Under the pieces are notes generated by a model that ran no database searches, was not told where the DNA came from, and worked only from the letters and a program-made list of their open reading frames with translations. This document shows, piece after piece, positions 8,870 to 15,287 of a DNA stretch of 64,000 nt. The DNA lies in NCBI GenBank assembly GCA_019637155.1, contig JAHBWE010000005.1, forward strand, positions 372,001-436,000, in the 5' to 3' direction. The position numbers and the translations under genes are program-made. This stretch comes from Labilithrix sp. Lineage in GTDB: Bacteria > Myxococcota_A > Polyangia > Polyangiales > Polyangiaceae. The number at the start of each line of letters is the position of its first letter. Within the stretch, counting starts at the first letter, position 1.

Positions 8870-9433
8870 ATGGCAAGCACGACCGACATCCGCAAAGGCC
8901 TCAAGATCCAGATCGACGGCGTGCCGTACCACATCGTCGAGCACCAGTTCGTGAAGCCGGGCAAGGGTCAGTCGTTCACGCGCTGCAGCGTGCGCAACCT
9001 CACGAACGGCAAGGTCGTCGAGCGCACCTGGAAGTCCGGCGAGTCGGTCGAGCTCGCCGACGTCGAGGACCGGAAGATGACGTATTCGTGGGAAGAGGGC
9101 GACAACTACGTCTTCATGGACACGAACACGGGCGACCAGATCTACGTCGGCAAGGACAAGGTCGGCCCCGAGGCGCGCTTCCTCTCGGAGGGCCTCGACG
9201 TCGAGGTCACGCTCTTCAACGGCAACCCGATCGGCATCGACATGCCGCCGAACGTCATCATGCAGGTCGTCACGAGCGAGCCGGGCGTGAAGGGCGACAC
9301 CGCGAGCGGCGCGACCAAGCCCGCCACGCTCGCGACCGGCGCGACCGTCAACGTCCCGCTCTTCATCAAAGAAGGCGAGTGGATCAAGATCGACGTCGCC
9401 TCCGGCCAGTACCAAGAGCGCGTCAACAAGTAA
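8870..9433 (+). CDS. efp: Elongation factor P
   Basis: 187 residues, the normal length. EF-P binds ribosomes stalled at polyproline stretches and promotes peptide bond formation. The N-terminal KOW-like domain contains the VKPGKGQSF loop, where Lys32 is the residue that carries the activating modification in many bacteria. The OB domains follow, with the C-terminal signature EPGVKGDTASGATKPA and VPLFIKEGEWIKID. A GAGGA ribosome-binding site lies five bases before ATG. No EpmA or EpmB gene is in the window. Confidence 0.97.
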   Translation: MASTTDIRKGLKIQIDGVPYHIVEHQFVKPGKGQSFTRCSVRNLTNGKVVERTWKSGESVELADVEDRKMTYSWEEGDNYVFMDTNTGDQIYVGKDKVGPEARFLSEGLDVEVTLFNGNPIGIDMPPNVIMQVVTSEPGVKGDTASGATKPATLATGATVNVPLFIKEGEWIKIDVASGQYQERVNK

Positions 9434-9450: not shown

Positions 9451-10800
9451 GTGAGTCTTCGCGCATTTGCGGCGTTCGCCGCGGCCGTGATCGTGGCGGC
9501 CGCGTGCGGCGGGACCTCCGCCGAGGCTCCGGCCGGTCCGTCGCAGGCCGGCGTGATCGATCTCGACGGCGGGCCGATCCAGACCACGCCCGACGGACCG
9601 AGCGGGCTCCCTTGCGACGTCGACGCGATCCTCACGACCCACTGCCGGAAGTGCCACGCGCGGCCGCCGCAATACGGCGCGCCGATGCCGCTCCTCGGCT
9701 GGGACGACCTCCAGGCCCCGACGCCGAGCGGCGGCAAGAAGGTCCACGAGATGGTGCTCTCGAAGGTCGCGAACGACGACGCGCCGATGCCGCCGGCGCC
9801 GAACGCGCGCCTCTCGGAGGCGGAGAAGAAGACGCTCTCCGACTGGTCCGCCGCCGGCGCGCCGCGCAGCGCGGAGAGCTGCGCGACCACGCCGCCTCCT
9901 CCTCCGCCCGATCCGGTGACCGGCCTCTCCTGCACCCCGAACAAGACGCTCGCGCCCGCGGCGCCCTACGAGATGCCGGAGAGCGCGGGCGATCAGTACG
10001 TGTGCTGGGGCGTCGACGTCACCGCCGACACGCCGACGCACATCGTCGGCTTCGCGCCGCGGATCGACAACACGACGATCACGCATCACGTCGTGATGTA
10101 CGAAGCGCCCTCGTCGTATCCGTCGACCCCGCAGCCGTGCGACGCCTCCGCGGCGGTGACGTGGCGCATGGTCCTCGGCTGGGCGCCCGGCATCTCCGGC
10201 GTCGAGCTGCCGCCGGAGGCGGGCTTCCCGATCGCGCCGGCCGGGACGCACTACGTCGTGCAGATGCACTACTCGAACCCGCAGCGCCTCAAGGGCGAGA
10301 AGGACAGCACGAAGATCGAGGTCTGCACCGCGCCGCCGCGGCAGCACGAGGCCGACGTGCTCGCGTTCGGGTCGCAGAGCTTCACCATCCCCGCCGCCCC
10401 ACCTCCCGGCGGCGTCTTCACGCGCGAGTGCAGCATCACCGTCCCGAGCTTCTTCGCCGGAATCCACCTCTTCGCCGCCATGCCCCACATGCACAAAATC
10501 GGGCACGCGATGACGACGACGCTCACGCGGCAGGGCGGCGCGCCGATCGACCTCGGCACGATGACCAGCTACGACTTCAACGCGCAGCGCTGGTTGCCGA
10601 TCGACGCGGTGACGCAGAGCGGAGACGTCATCCGCACCGACTGCAGCTGGAAGAACACGACCGGCGCGCCGGTGAAGTTCGGCGAAAAGACGGCCGACGA
10701 GATGTGTTACTCGTTCACCATGTACTATCCACGCATCGCATCGACGCTCTGGAGCTGGGGCCTCCCCGCCCAGACGGCGAGCTGCGTATCGAGGCCCTGA
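9451..10800 (+). CDS. Lipoprotein with heme motif and copper type II monooxygenase-like domains
   Basis: GTG at 9451, 17 bp after efp, starts a lipoprotein signal (RAFAAFAAAVIVAAACGG). 449 residues. An N-terminal module has CDVDAILTTHCRKCHARP, a CxxCH heme-binding motif in the style of planctomycete/myxobacterial cytochrome modules. After a Pro-rich linker, residues about 165-449 resemble the two copper domains of PHM/DBH-type ascorbate-dependent monooxygenases, with THHVVMYE, HYVVQMHYSNP and MPHMHKIG as likely copper ligands. This suggests an extracytoplasmic redox enzyme fed by heme. Substrate unknown. The stop codon is one base before the proposed start of hflX. Confidence 0.8.
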   Translation: MSLRAFAAFAAAVIVAAACGGTSAEAPAGPSQAGVIDLDGGPIQTTPDGPSGLPCDVDAILTTHCRKCHARPPQYGAPMPLLGWDDLQAPTPSGGKKVHEMVLSKVANDDAPMPPAPNARLSEAEKKTLSDWSAAGAPRSAESCATTPPPPPPDPVTGLSCTPNKTLAPAAPYEMPESAGDQYVCWGVDVTADTPTHIVGFAPRIDNTTITHHVVMYEAPSSYPSTPQPCDASAAVTWRMVLGWAPGISGVELPPEAGFPIAPAGTHYVVQMHYSNPQRLKGEKDSTKIEVCTAPPRQHEADVLAFGSQSFTIPAAPPPGGVFTRECSITVPSFFAGIHLFAAMPHMHKIGHAMTTTLTRQGGAPIDLGTMTSYDFNAQRWLPIDAVTQSGDVIRTDCSWKNTTGAPVKFGEKTADEMCYSFTMYYPRIASTLWSWGLPAQTASCVSRP

Positions 10801-10801
10801 C

Positions 10802-12637
10802 ATCGAGCTCTACGGCAACACCAAGGGGCTCTCCCCGTCCGCGACGAAGACGCTCGAGCGCATCTATCGGCGCAAGGTCCCCGTGAACGACATCTCGACG
10901 ACGGAGCTGACGCGGTCGCTCGTCGCCGCGAGCGTCGAGACCGGGCGCCAGGTCGGCGCGCTCGTGCATCGCTCCGGGCAGGTCGACTACGTCGTCGTCG
11001 GCGACGCGGGGAAGCTGATGCTCCCCGACATCGGGCGCCTCCGCGCGGCGGAGGGGCGCTTCCGCGGCCTGCGCCTGATCCACACCCACCTCCGTGGCGA
11101 GGCGCTGACGCGCGACGACATCGTCGACCTCGTGCGGCTCCGCCTCGACCTCGTCTGCGCGATCCAGCTCTCGCCGCGGGGGGAGGCGAGGTCGATGCAG
11201 TATGCATACAACGTCCCGACCGACGATCCCGACGCGCTGCCGTACCGCGAGGTCGGGCCGCTCCCGATCGGACAGGCCCTCGTCGACGTCGGAGAGCTCA
11301 TGTCCGACCTCGAGGCCGAGTTCGCGCGCCAGAGCCGCGGGCGCGAGGTGCGCGGCAAGGACGGCGTCGCGATGCTCGTCCACGTCGGCGAGAAGAGCGA
11401 GCGGAACCGAGGCCAGGACGCGCTCGGAAGACCGAGCGCTCTACGTCACGCCGAGGTGAGCATGAGCGAGCTCCGCGAGCTCGCGCGCACGGCCGGCGTC
11501 GCGGTGGCGGAGGAGATCGTGCAGCTGCGCGATCGCGTCGACCCCAAGTTCGTGCTCGGCAAGGGCAAGCTCGAGGACGTCATCGTCCGCGCGATGCAGC
11601 GCGGCGCCGACGTGCTCGTCTTCGACCGCGATCTCACCCCCGCGCAGAACTCCGCGATCGCGAAGGAGTCGGACCTCAAGGTCATCGATCGCACGCAGCT
11701 GATCCTCGACATCTTCGCGCAGCGCGCGGAGAGCTACGACGGCAAGCTGCAGGTCGAGCTCGCGCAGCTGAAGTACAACATGCCGCGCCTCGGGATGAAG
11801 GACGACGCGCTCTCGCGCCTCACCGGCGGCATCGGCGGACGCGGCCCCGGCGAGACGAAGCTCGAGATCGGTCGCCGCCGCGCGAAGGAGCGCGTCGCGC
11901 ACCTCGAGGCGCAGCTCCGGAAGCTCTCGAAGCGCCGCGAGCAGCGCCGTCACAAGCGCACGCGCGACGGCGTGCCGACCGTCGCGATCGTCGGCTACAC
12001 GAACGCGGGCAAGAGCACGCTCCTCAACGCGCTCACCGGCGCGGAGGTGCTCGCGGAGGACAAGCTCTTCGCGACCCTCGACACGCGCTCGCGCCACTTG
12101 AAGGTGGGCTGGGCGGGCTACGGCGATCGCGAGATCGTCATCACCGACACGGTGGGCTTCATCCGCGATTTGCCGGAGGACCTCTTCGCCGCCTTCCGCG
12201 CCACCTTCGAGGAGGCGGCGGACGCGGACCTGATCCTCCACGTCGTCGACGCGGCCGATCCGGCGAAGGAAGACCACGTCGCGACGACGGAGAACGTCCT
12301 CGCCGAGCTCGAGCTCGCGGAGATCCCGCGCGTCATGGTGTTCAACAAGATCGAGCTCCTCACGAAGATCGACGCGAAGATCTTGCAGAAGAAGCACCCC
12401 GACTCGGTGCAGGTGTCGGCGATGCAGCGCGACTCGGTGCGGCCGCTCTTGAAGCGGCTCGCGATCGAGCTCGCGGAGCGCTGGGATCAGAGCGCGAGGA
12501 TGCCGGTCGCCGCGCCGGTCGATCCCGAGACCGAACAAGAGCTCCCCGACGCGGAGCCCGACCTCCACGCGACGACGCTCGACGAGCTGCTCCGCGCGGC
12601 GGGCCGGCGCGGCCGCCGCCGCGTCCAGGTCACCTGA
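10802..12637 (+). CDS. hflX: GTPase HflX, probable AUC start
   Basis: HflX is a ribosome-associated GTPase that splits and rescues stalled ribosomes. Glycine-rich GGIGGRGPGETKLE precedes the G domain, which has GYTNAGKST (G1), DTVGF (G3) and NKIE (G4). This is the long form with an N-terminal region resembling delta-proteobacterial homologs. The first ordinary start is GTG 10883, but the preceding frame reads ELYGNTKGLSPSATKTLERI, which fits the conserved HflX beginning and lacks any in-frame ATG, GTG or TTG. An AUC at 10802 sits seven bases after a GAGG (10791-10794) and one base after the upstream stop, so I take it as the start. A start at 10883 remains possible. Confidence 0.85.
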   Translation: MELYGNTKGLSPSATKTLERIYRRKVPVNDISTTELTRSLVAASVETGRQVGALVHRSGQVDYVVVGDAGKLMLPDIGRLRAAEGRFRGLRLIHTHLRGEALTRDDIVDLVRLRLDLVCAIQLSPRGEARSMQYAYNVPTDDPDALPYREVGPLPIGQALVDVGELMSDLEAEFARQSRGREVRGKDGVAMLVHVGEKSERNRGQDALGRPSALRHAEVSMSELRELARTAGVAVAEEIVQLRDRVDPKFVLGKGKLEDVIVRAMQRGADVLVFDRDLTPAQNSAIAKESDLKVIDRTQLILDIFAQRAESYDGKLQVELAQLKYNMPRLGMKDDALSRLTGGIGGRGPGETKLEIGRRRAKERVAHLEAQLRKLSKRREQRRHKRTRDGVPTVAIVGYTNAGKSTLLNALTGAEVLAEDKLFATLDTRSRHLKVGWAGYGDREIVITDTVGFIRDLPEDLFAAFRATFEEAADADLILHVVDAADPAKEDHVATTENVLAELELAEIPRVMVFNKIELLTKIDAKILQKKHPDSVQVSAMQRDSVRPLLKRLAIELAERWDQSARMPVAAPVDPETEQELPDAEPDLHATTLDELLRAAGRRGRRRVQVT

Positions 12638-12647
12638 CGAGATCGGC

Positions 12648-15287
12648 TCACCTGACGAGATCGGCCGCGTTACGCGGGTAGAGCTTTCGCTGCGAGAACG
12701 ACCAGCCCATGATGCCGGTGAAGCTCGAGAAGGTCGCGTCCTTCTCGAAGCCGGGGGCGGGGTAAGGACAGAGCTGACCGCCGGTGGTCCCGCAGTTGCC
12801 GAAGCGGCGGAAGAGCTGGTCGTGGATGCGGAGCCCGCCGGGCGACACCTCCATCTCCCAGCGCGCGTCATGGGCCGCGTCCTTCACCCCGTTGAGGTTG
12901 GGGTCCGTGACGACGAAGCTCCCGTCGACGCGCACGAGCAGGCTCTCGTACGGCTCCGCGGCGGCGCGCGCGGCGGTGTTGATCTGGTTGACGTTCACCA
13001 AGAGCGGGACCGCGGGCGTGACCGCGGTGTCGATCACGGTGATGGTGGCGAGCGTGATCTGGTCCTGGTCGAACGGGTTCTTGTGCAGACCCACCGCGCG
13101 GACCTTCTGCCCGAGCCGCGGACCGGTGGACGCGTTGCCCGCGAGCGCGTCGGCCTGGAGGTAGATCCCCTGCCACGGCCCGCCCTCCACCGTCTCCTGG
13201 ATGTAGAGGTGCGTGCTCGCGAGCTTCGCGCTCACGATGCCCTCGACCGCGACGACGCTCGGGACGTCCGGGTGTCCCGCCGCGGCGGGGTTCCGGACGG
13301 TGGAGATCGGGTAGTCGCAGGGATCGGCGCCCGAGCGGCTCTCTGCGCAGGTGTCGCACGCGTCGCCGATGCCGTCGTCGTCCGCGTCGGCCTGATCGGC
13401 GTTCGCGACCGTCAGGCAGTTGTCGATGCCGTTCGGGACGCCGTCGCCGTCGATGTCCGCGCCGCTCAGGTGGTCGCACTCCTGCGAGCCGTCGTTCGGG
13501 CACTCGTCGCACGCGTCGCCGATGCCGTCGTTGTCGGAGTCGGCCTGGTTGCCGCCGTCCATCGGTCGCACGGGGTTGAAGATGAGCGGGCAGTTGTCGC
13601 GATCGTCGGGGATGCCGTCGCCGTCCTTGTCCGACTCGGTGGGGTTGCCGTCGTAGACGGTGGAGCCGCGGACGACGCCGGGGCGCGAGGGGTGGCACGA
13701 CGGCTCGTCGGTCGGCGTCTCGTTCTTGCAGAAGAACGTCGGGTAGAACTTCGTGCCGGCCTCGAGGACGGTCGCGAGCGTGGGCGGGTTGGACGACGCG
13801 CGCACGTCGATGCAGGCCGTCTTCTCCTTGCCGCACACGTCGCCGGGCCACGGCGCGCAACGCGACGTCGCGGGGGGGAGGACCGCGGGATCGGTGATGA
13901 GCGGCGTGTCGCCGTAGAGCGCGGTGCCGCCGCGGAGGACGAGGGCGACGTCCTCGACGCCGCCGTCGATGACGGCGCGGAAGTCCTTGTTCGTCGAGCC
14001 GTCGTAGACCGCGATGTCGGCGAGGTAGCCTGTCTTCAGCATGCCGATCGCGTGGGCGGCGCCGGACGCCATCGCGGCGTTGATCGTGACCATGCGCCAG
14101 AGGTCGGCGTCGGTGAAGTGCTTGTCGAAGTACTTCGTGTTCCAGTCGTCCGCGCAGCGGAGCTCGCGGAACATGTTCATCGAGCCGGAGGGGATCCAGT
14201 CGGTGCCGAGCGCGATCGTCACGCCGAGCATGTCGAGCATGACCGCGGGCGTCGTGTTGCCGTAGAGGTCCACGTTCGAGCGCGGCGACCAGATGACCTT
14301 CGCGCCCGCCTTGCGGATCGCGCGCGCGTCGTCGGTGCGGACCGCGACCGCGTGGATGATGCCGCTCGTCGGCAGGACGAGGTTGTTCTTGCTGTCCTCG
14401 TCGCGCAGGCAGACGAACTCGTTGTGCGCCTCGGGGTCGATGCCCTCCGAGATGTGCGGGACGTAGGCGCCGCGCTGCTCCGCGACGTAGGTCGTGCGGA
14501 TGTTGCTGTAGTCGCACGAGGCGATGATGTTCTTGCCGGGCGTGCCGAGCGGGAACGTGTCGGAGAAGGCGAAGTCGACGGGGAGGCCCTCGAGCTGATC
14601 GGCGTCGGTGTCGAGGTTGCGCATGAGGCCCGACGCGCCGCCGCCGCCGCCGATGATCGAGGTGCCGCCGCTCATGATGAAGCGGAGCTCGCCGTGCGCG
14701 AGGATGGCCGCGGTGCGGACCGAGCTGTTGTACTCGAGGCGCTTGTGGCCGCGCGCGCCCTGCCAGTCGCTGCGGTTCTCGTACTTCTCCGCGTGGACGA
14801 TCGGCTTGTTGTTCTGGAAGGTGATGTGCTCGTGCGCGTTGATGAGGCCGGGCGAGATGACGCCGTCCGGGCACGAGATGATCGTCGCGTCGGCGTACGC
14901 GGGATCGTCCGAGCAGTCGCAGGAGACGCACGCGATGCGGCCCCGCGCGTCGAACATGACCTCACCGCCGTGCAGCACCTCCTCCGGCCCGAGCACGCTG
15001 CCGCGGATGACCTTCATCGCGCCGGCGGTGCCGGCCTTCGTCACCGCGCAGACGCCGCTCGCCACCGGCGCGATCGTGCTCTTGCACTCGGTGACCTTCG
15101 GCTGCGGGTTGTAGTTCGTGTGCGGCTGCGCCGGCTTCGGCGGCGCGATGAAGCCGTCGCCGCCGGCGTCGAAGATGTCGCCGTCAGGGACCTTCACTCC
15201 CTGCGGGTTCTCCTGATCGCTGCAGTGAAGCAGCATGCCGGCCCCGCTCGCGGCGAGGGCAAAAGCCAAGAAGCGCGAAGGGAGCAT
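12648..15287 (-). CDS. Amidohydrolase-family lipoprotein with thrombospondin type 3 repeats
   Basis: 879 residues with a lipoprotein-type N-terminus (SGAGMLLHC, Cys22). The first two thirds are a metal-dependent amidohydrolase: SPGLINAHEHITF supplies the HxH metal motif, followed by GGTSIIGGGGGASG, TSGIIHAVAV, IWSPRSNVDLYG and IALGTDWIPSGSMNM (Asp ligand region). Next come calcium-binding thrombospondin type 3 motifs: DKDGDGIPDDRDNCP, DSDNDGIGDACDEC, DIDGDGVPNGIDNC and DADDDGIGDACDTC. A C-terminal beta domain (about 690-879) completes the protein. It probably acts at the outer membrane or outside the cell. The substrate cannot be read from sequence. Confidence 0.88.
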   Translation of the reverse strand: MLPSRFLAFALAASGAGMLLHCSDQENPQGVKVPDGDIFDAGGDGFIAPPKPAQPHTNYNPQPKVTECKSTIAPVASGVCAVTKAGTAGAMKVIRGSVLGPEEVLHGGEVMFDARGRIACVSCDCSDDPAYADATIISCPDGVISPGLINAHEHITFQNNKPIVHAEKYENRSDWQGARGHKRLEYNSSVRTAAILAHGELRFIMSGGTSIIGGGGGASGLMRNLDTDADQLEGLPVDFAFSDTFPLGTPGKNIIASCDYSNIRTTYVAEQRGAYVPHISEGIDPEAHNEFVCLRDEDSKNNLVLPTSGIIHAVAVRTDDARAIRKAGAKVIWSPRSNVDLYGNTTPAVMLDMLGVTIALGTDWIPSGSMNMFRELRCADDWNTKYFDKHFTDADLWRMVTINAAMASGAAHAIGMLKTGYLADIAVYDGSTNKDFRAVIDGGVEDVALVLRGGTALYGDTPLITDPAVLPPATSRCAPWPGDVCGKEKTACIDVRASSNPPTLATVLEAGTKFYPTFFCKNETPTDEPSCHPSRPGVVRGSTVYDGNPTESDKDGDGIPDDRDNCPLIFNPVRPMDGGNQADSDNDGIGDACDECPNDGSQECDHLSGADIDGDGVPNGIDNCLTVANADQADADDDGIGDACDTCAESRSGADPCDYPISTVRNPAAAGHPDVPSVVAVEGIVSAKLASTHLYIQETVEGGPWQGIYLQADALAGNASTGPRLGQKVRAVGLHKNPFDQDQITLATITVIDTAVTPAVPLLVNVNQINTAARAAAEPYESLLVRVDGSFVVTDPNLNGVKDAAHDARWEMEVSPGGLRIHDQLFRRFGNCGTTGGQLCPYPAPGFEKDATFSSFTGIMGWSFSQRKLYPRNAADLVR

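Follow-up and report, generated by a model that had tools for sequence, protein, structure and literature searches.

A conserved near-cognate start codon for hflX in Labilithrix and related bacteria

Translation of hflX in Labilithrix sp. almost certainly starts at an AUC codon, and the codon at the same place appears to be near-cognate (AUC, AUU, AUA or CUG) across much of the phylum and also in a second one. The gene lies in a 64,000-nucleotide stretch of a 10.1-Mb genome (GenBank assembly GCA_019637155.1, contig JAHBWE010000005.1, positions 372,001 to 436,000 of the forward strand), here called the window, whose numbering is used throughout. Comparison among genomes shows the place of this start, its conservation, its restriction to codons capable of initiation and its specificity to hflX relative to two control genes. 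We consider our account quite probable, in which fMet would be placed at a near-cognate AUC kept by selection, HflX would likely be made in low amounts, and the start may be subject to rejection by IF3.

Results

An open frame for hflX runs from 10676, just after a TGA at 10673-10675, to the TGA at 12635-12637 (Table 1). As an initial annotation of this DNA had stated, it contains no ATG, GTG or TTG before GTG 10883; CTG and ATT are absent from this part as well, and ATC 10727 is the sole other near-cognate codon in frame upstream of ATC 10802. GTG 10883 lies 27 codons downstream of that ATC in the same frame. The spacing given in the annotation also agrees with the sequence, with the ATC one base past the TGA of the upstream gene and seven bases past a GAGG. 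Read from 10802, the product is a protein of 611 residues that matches the HflX model TIGR03156 with 427.7 bits against a cut-off of 216.75. Predicted folding of the RNA from 10760 to 10860 was no better than that of shuffled sequences (z 0.51) and gave no hairpin signal at the start, and a consensus search for promoters between 8700 and 12800 found none. Two further short HflX paralogs without the N-terminal domain are present in the same genome (L002 and L003), and canonical codons are available upstream of their cores. Beyond hflX, the minus strand carries a large lipoprotein-like open reading frame (12648-15287), whose translation we take to combine an amidohydrolase-like part with acidic calcium-binding repeats behind it.

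Table 1. Features of the hflX region, in window coordinates
Feature	Position	Strand	Remarks
efp (elongation factor P)	8870..9433	+	directly 5' of hflX in several relatives
Putative lipoprotein gene	9451..10800	+	GTG start, stop TGA 10798-10800
GAGG, weak Shine-Dalgarno-like site	10791..10794	+	seven bases 5' of ATC 10802
hflX	10802..12637	+	long form (611 codons and a stop) that includes the N-terminal domain; TIGR03156 match
ATC, predicted start codon of hflX	10802..10804	+	first conserved codon; constraint begins here
Extra N-terminal domain of HflX (predicted), about residues 1-186	10802..11359	+	JAMM/MPN-like, perhaps, from about residue 28
GTG, first in-frame canonical codon of hflX	10883..10885	+	residue 28; judged non-start

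Across 12 genomes of the genus, identity is about 0.3 at all three codon positions in the columns 5' of the ATC and about 0.9, 0.9 and 0.6 at codon positions 1, 2 and 3 from the ATC onward. The median dN over codons 2-28 is 0.11 and the median dS 0.87 (65 pairs), and in several species a stop closes the frame three or four codons 5' of the start place. The codon at that place is ATC in 11 of the 12 genomes and ATT in the other. Initiation at AUC 10802, as inferred in the annotation, is supported as a conserved weak start, and the alignment with related HflX proteins that it had proposed as a check likewise went its way, in that the homologs keep the N-terminal segment.

Two readings would do away with an AUC start altogether. 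Initiation at GTG 10883 or further downstream, with the preceding segment left untranslated, would use a canonical codon and would suit the JAMM/MPN-like core, which aligns only from about residue 27-29; we nevertheless find it highly improbable, because dN is well under dS in codons 2-28, the valine at residue 28 is shared by just 3 of the 12 genus genomes, and a start at this GTG would remove the invariant residues G5, L18, R23 and R24. In the 98 loci without an upstream canonical codon (see below), the next canonical codon lies anywhere between +2 and +59 codons, and six of these loci have none. That the ATC arose by an error of sequencing or assembly, or by recent mutation of an ATG, is an idea that draws what appeal it has from the window's resting on a single assembly. 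It is hardly credible in the face of independent genomes, which have ATC or ATT in 12 of 12 cases within the genus and also in many other families; a missed ATG or GTG, against which the annotation had advised a check, is excluded by the ATC or ATT that relatives have, each independently, in this codon position.

Within the phylum, start codons were read in 149 of the 319 genomes searched, taking best matches first, and were ATC in 59, CTG in 16, ATT in 11, ATA in 1, TTG in 22, GTG in 11 and ATG in 28, with 1 uncalled. Near-cognate codons thus account for 87 genomes, as against 33 with TTG or GTG and 28 with ATG, and this tally preferred any canonical codon at codons -9 to -4, so that near-cognate starts are undercounted. 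At least one genome with a near-cognate hflX start was found in 31 of 48 families, and in 26 of the 48 every genome read was of this kind. ATG starts occur in six families, with 22 of the 28 supplied by the family of Labilithrix itself, and most of the AUG starts in the phylum sit one codon further upstream; their use by 28 of the 149 genomes means that the weak codon can be lost. At the level of loci, 223 were read and the N-terminus was found in 217, the six without an N-terminal match (L091, L097, L098, L102, L104 and L105) being left out, and removal of 33 duplicates gave 184. No ATG, GTG or TTG occurs within 12 codons 5' of the conserved glycine (residue 5) in 98 of these 184, and all 98 carry ATC, ATT, ATA or CTG at codons -8 to -4.

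A second phylum came into the survey through one locus from a Deltaproteobacteria bacterium (L093). Its 92 hflX loci, drawn from 3 genomes together with the 108 of 148 genomes that had a match, start with ATC (29), ATT (23), ATA (15), CTG (1), ATG (12), GTG (4) or TTG (4), with 4 uncalled, so that 68 of the 92 are near-cognate. Taking both phyla together, 172 of 276 loci have no ATG, GTG or TTG at -9 to -4 codons from the conserved glycine, and a near-cognate codon is present there in 167 of the 172, compared with 24.5% of like upstream windows, although the loci are related and hence non-independent. Neither class of codon was found at -9 to -4 in the remaining five, four of which have ACG there and one a TTG at -3. 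The ACG codons, at codon -4 in L331, L332 and L349 and at codon -6 in L191, occupy the hflX start place and may be ACG starts. In Escherichia coli K-12 hflX starts with TTG (L109, 1173-1175), likewise a weak start.

The way in which the codon varies also bears on its role. Over 169 sequences, the start place switches among ATC, ATT, ATA and CTG with 42 changes. All four are near-cognate start codons, and the isoleucine-leucine changes of an ordinary inner codon would not be expected to stop at these four. Changes of the third base among AUH loci number 35, as compared with 13 between AUH and AUG. On a rough tree, built with FastTree from about 150 residues of the HflX N-terminal domain and bearing 271 labelled sequences, the near-cognate and canonical states exchange 26 times, against 72-86 times in 20 shuffles.

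Control genes start canonically in these same bacteria. Thirty EF-P loci among 58 relatives have ATG (28) or GTG (2), 30 Obg loci among the same relatives have ATG (12) or GTG (18), and 30 Obg loci of the second phylum have ATG (27), TTG (2) or GTG (1). With canonical starts in 90 of 90 cases, near-cognate initiation is not a general habit of these genomes. For infC, which encodes IF3, 6 of 30 loci have no canonical start, and in a set of 50 genomes all near-cognate infC starts fall outside the family of Labilithrix (one row, G040, is doubtful, its called ATG lying inside the protein). Within that family infC starts canonically in 32 of the 32 genomes placed, so the IF3 loop described for infC is missing from this family in its usual form. 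An AUC-type infC start occurs in most of the order's remaining families (L129-L158, L416-L435), where hflX mostly starts with TTG or GTG. The infC tally made together with the Obg tally of the second phylum is a loose one, as its 11 GTG calls may fall within the Shine-Dalgarno site. A search of the Labilithrix genome for three G-C pairs around NAT, the mark of an initiator-type anticodon arm, returned two sites, of which one is a tRNA-Met with anticodon CAT and the other is no tRNA according to ARAGORN; a special initiator tRNA was set aside because the sole tRNA found with this pattern has the anticodon CAT.

Shine-Dalgarno strength was expressed as the energy of the duplex with ACCUCCUU (kcal/mol) and compared with that of shuffled sequence. 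For near-cognate hflX starts the mean was -8.0 in 58 genomes outside the order (shuffled, -2.5) and -8.7 in 7 genomes within the order but outside the family (shuffled, -4.0). Loci with ATG in the same phylum had means of -1.7 and -2.0. The second phylum gave means of -8.1 to -8.8 for AUH loci, -10.3 for the single CTG locus and -3.4 for ATG loci. The weak hflX codon is thus paired with a strong Shine-Dalgarno site outside the genus of Labilithrix. Within the genus the mean of -3.7 is hardly better than the shuffled value of -2.8, and the chief difficulty for our account of the AUC start is this weak site. The GAGG noted in the annotation is where it was said to be; as a Shine-Dalgarno sequence, however, it is weak, the sites of the genus barely exceeding their shuffles.

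In the window, efp, the putative lipoprotein gene (which has no Pfam match) and hflX are closely consecutive. The one-base gap before hflX is peculiar to this genome in a comparison with 11 genus-mates, where the space between the lipoprotein-gene homolog and hflX measures 64-114 bases in six genomes and 262 and 315 bases in another two; two others have efp upstream, with its end 9 and 89 bases before hflX, and in one neither gene was found. Of the ten loci in which efp was found, six have its end 9, 13, 33, 62, 66 or 89 bases before hflX. efp is the gene directly 5' of hflX in several Labilithrix-like genomes (L013, L015, L018, L016, L044 and L046), and EF-P and HflX both act on stalled ribosomes. 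Distances to the upstream open reading frame do not differ clearly between AUH/CUG loci and ATG/GTG/TTG loci. Translational coupling of hflX to the lipoprotein gene, as proposed in the annotation, is possible in the window, but with the gaps seen in the genus-mates it finds no support as a general mechanism and is not what keeps the AUC.

The protein itself appears to consist of an extra domain (residues 1-186) and an HflX core from about residue 187. Solved structures of HflX and GTPBP6 align from about residue 186-187 (5ady_6: Z 34.4, 346 aligned, rmsd 2.6), and residues 1-185 are left uncovered by the HflX structure 5ady_6. What the annotation called the HflX N-terminus is conserved, then, but is predicted to be this extra domain and not part of the canonical core. 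AlphaFold models residues 1-210 with a mean pLDDT of 86, including a well-defined strand (3-5) and helix (12-22), and residues 1-22 are modelled as folded with pLDDT of about 90-95. Among solved folds the nearest are those of JAMM/MPN proteins, which align from about residue 27-29 (5ld9_A: Z 7.3, 111 aligned, rmsd 3.7); the 50 rows of structure matches are mostly JAMM/MPN or MPN-like, yet with Z under 8, and the best Foldseek E-value for an MPN chain, large complexes apart, was 0.09 or weaker. A search of the domain against Pfam matched no family. These comparisons are suggestive of a domain that is perhaps JAMM/MPN-like. All 29 sequences compared have H94, H96 and D106, residues that, we presume, recall a JAMM motif. 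Among the 29 aligned sequences, methionine occurs in at least six at only two columns of residues 1-199, namely 73 and 167; an internal ATG start for the HflX core was rejected, as neither column lies directly ahead of residue 187.

Discussion

We propose that AUC 10802 would be read as fMet by the ordinary initiator tRNA, and that selection would maintain a near-cognate codon at the beginning of hflX across much of this phylum and also in another. The weak codon would keep HflX synthesis low; such a limit is likely because the cases measured in Staphylococcus aureus showed reduced output from AUU and AUA starts. IF3 would reject the AUC start, so that HflX would rise when there is too little IF3 for the free 30S subunits and fall when IF3 is ample, a form of control that we infer from infC and sigR. 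HflX of E. coli is described as splitting 70S ribosomes under stress; IF3, according to the same source (PMC9067457), keeps free 30S subunits separate from the 50S. A link between the two would make sense, because one factor splits the 70S particle and the other holds the 30S subunit off the 50S.

Other causes for a weak codon have to be considered. The same data could be produced if the AUC were a fixed dial for low output, as in pcnB, giving constitutively low HflX and sensing neither IF3 nor anything else. We put this at a little under an even chance: canonical infC starts in the family of Labilithrix agree with it, as do the ATG loci without a Shine-Dalgarno site (-1.7 and -2.0), where low initiation may persist by another route in keeping with tuning without sensing, whereas most lineages combine AUH with a strong Shine-Dalgarno site, as infC and ccpN do, and ccpN responds to growth medium. 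It is improbable, by comparison, that termination and reinitiation from an upstream gene, be it the lipoprotein gene or efp, is what makes the weak codon tolerable. The one-base gap in the window, the 9 and 13 bases past efp in L013 and L015, and the weak Shine-Dalgarno sites of the genus would all fit reinitiation, but six genus-mates have the 64-114-base gaps given above and the classes of gap are much alike in AUH/CUG and ATG/GTG/TTG loci. To return to control by IF3, its strongest form would join HflX and IF3 in one old circuit run by start-codon discrimination, in which a shortage of IF3 relative to free 30S subunits would increase the use of AUH and CUG starts and so raise HflX and, in many lineages, IF3. 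We offer this circuit only tentatively, as a rather unlikely extension; in the family of Labilithrix, infC lacks the weak codon, which some genera retain in hflX.

Starts at AUC, AUU, AUA or CUG are known for few bacterial genes, and beyond infC the cases consulted here span one genus or a few species. By contrast, the hflX start appears to be near-cognate in two phyla and in upwards of 30 families, and hflX is the gene of a ribosome-splitting factor, so that control by IF3 of other factors that separate subunits becomes directly testable. There is a practical side as well, in that gene finders limited to ATG, GTG and TTG would truncate HflX of these bacteria at its N-terminus or set that end in the wrong place. 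We found no earlier report of a non-canonical hflX start in the open-access literature.

The likeness to infC that the annotation had drawn gains support from the conserved weak start of hflX. The infC start is given as AUU in E. coli and AUC in Streptomyces (PMC5472188), and it is AUC in other families of the same order. Both genes have a conserved AUH start and a product that acts on ribosomal subunits; they differ in that IF3, as described in that source, represses its own start, whereas HflX would not be autoregulatory, and in that the family of Labilithrix has a canonical infC alongside an hflX with AUC. The sigR gene of Streptomyces is reported to have a GTC start repressed by IF3 (PMC5472188) and is, as hflX would be, a gene other than infC that is held back by a non-canonical start, with a start described as misplaced in databases; the sigR case concerns GTC in one genus and was established by experiment, unlike that of hflX, which is known by comparison. 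In S. aureus, ccpN (AUA) and cvfC1 (AUU) are described as having a conserved AUH start with a strong, extended Shine-Dalgarno sequence, AUU and AUA starts as lowering output, and ccpN as responding to growth medium (PMC13009471). The same pairing of an AUH start with a strong site is seen for hflX outside the genus, though ccpN and cvfC1 are other genes in another phylum and, according to that account, were identified by start-site profiling and reporters. A weak start is also shared with pcnB of E. coli, a different gene, where AUU is said to limit translation (cited in PMC1780047). As judged from sequence comparison, hflX can be added to infC, pcnB, sigR and ccpN in the group of genes whose start is non-canonical, and its breadth is unusual.
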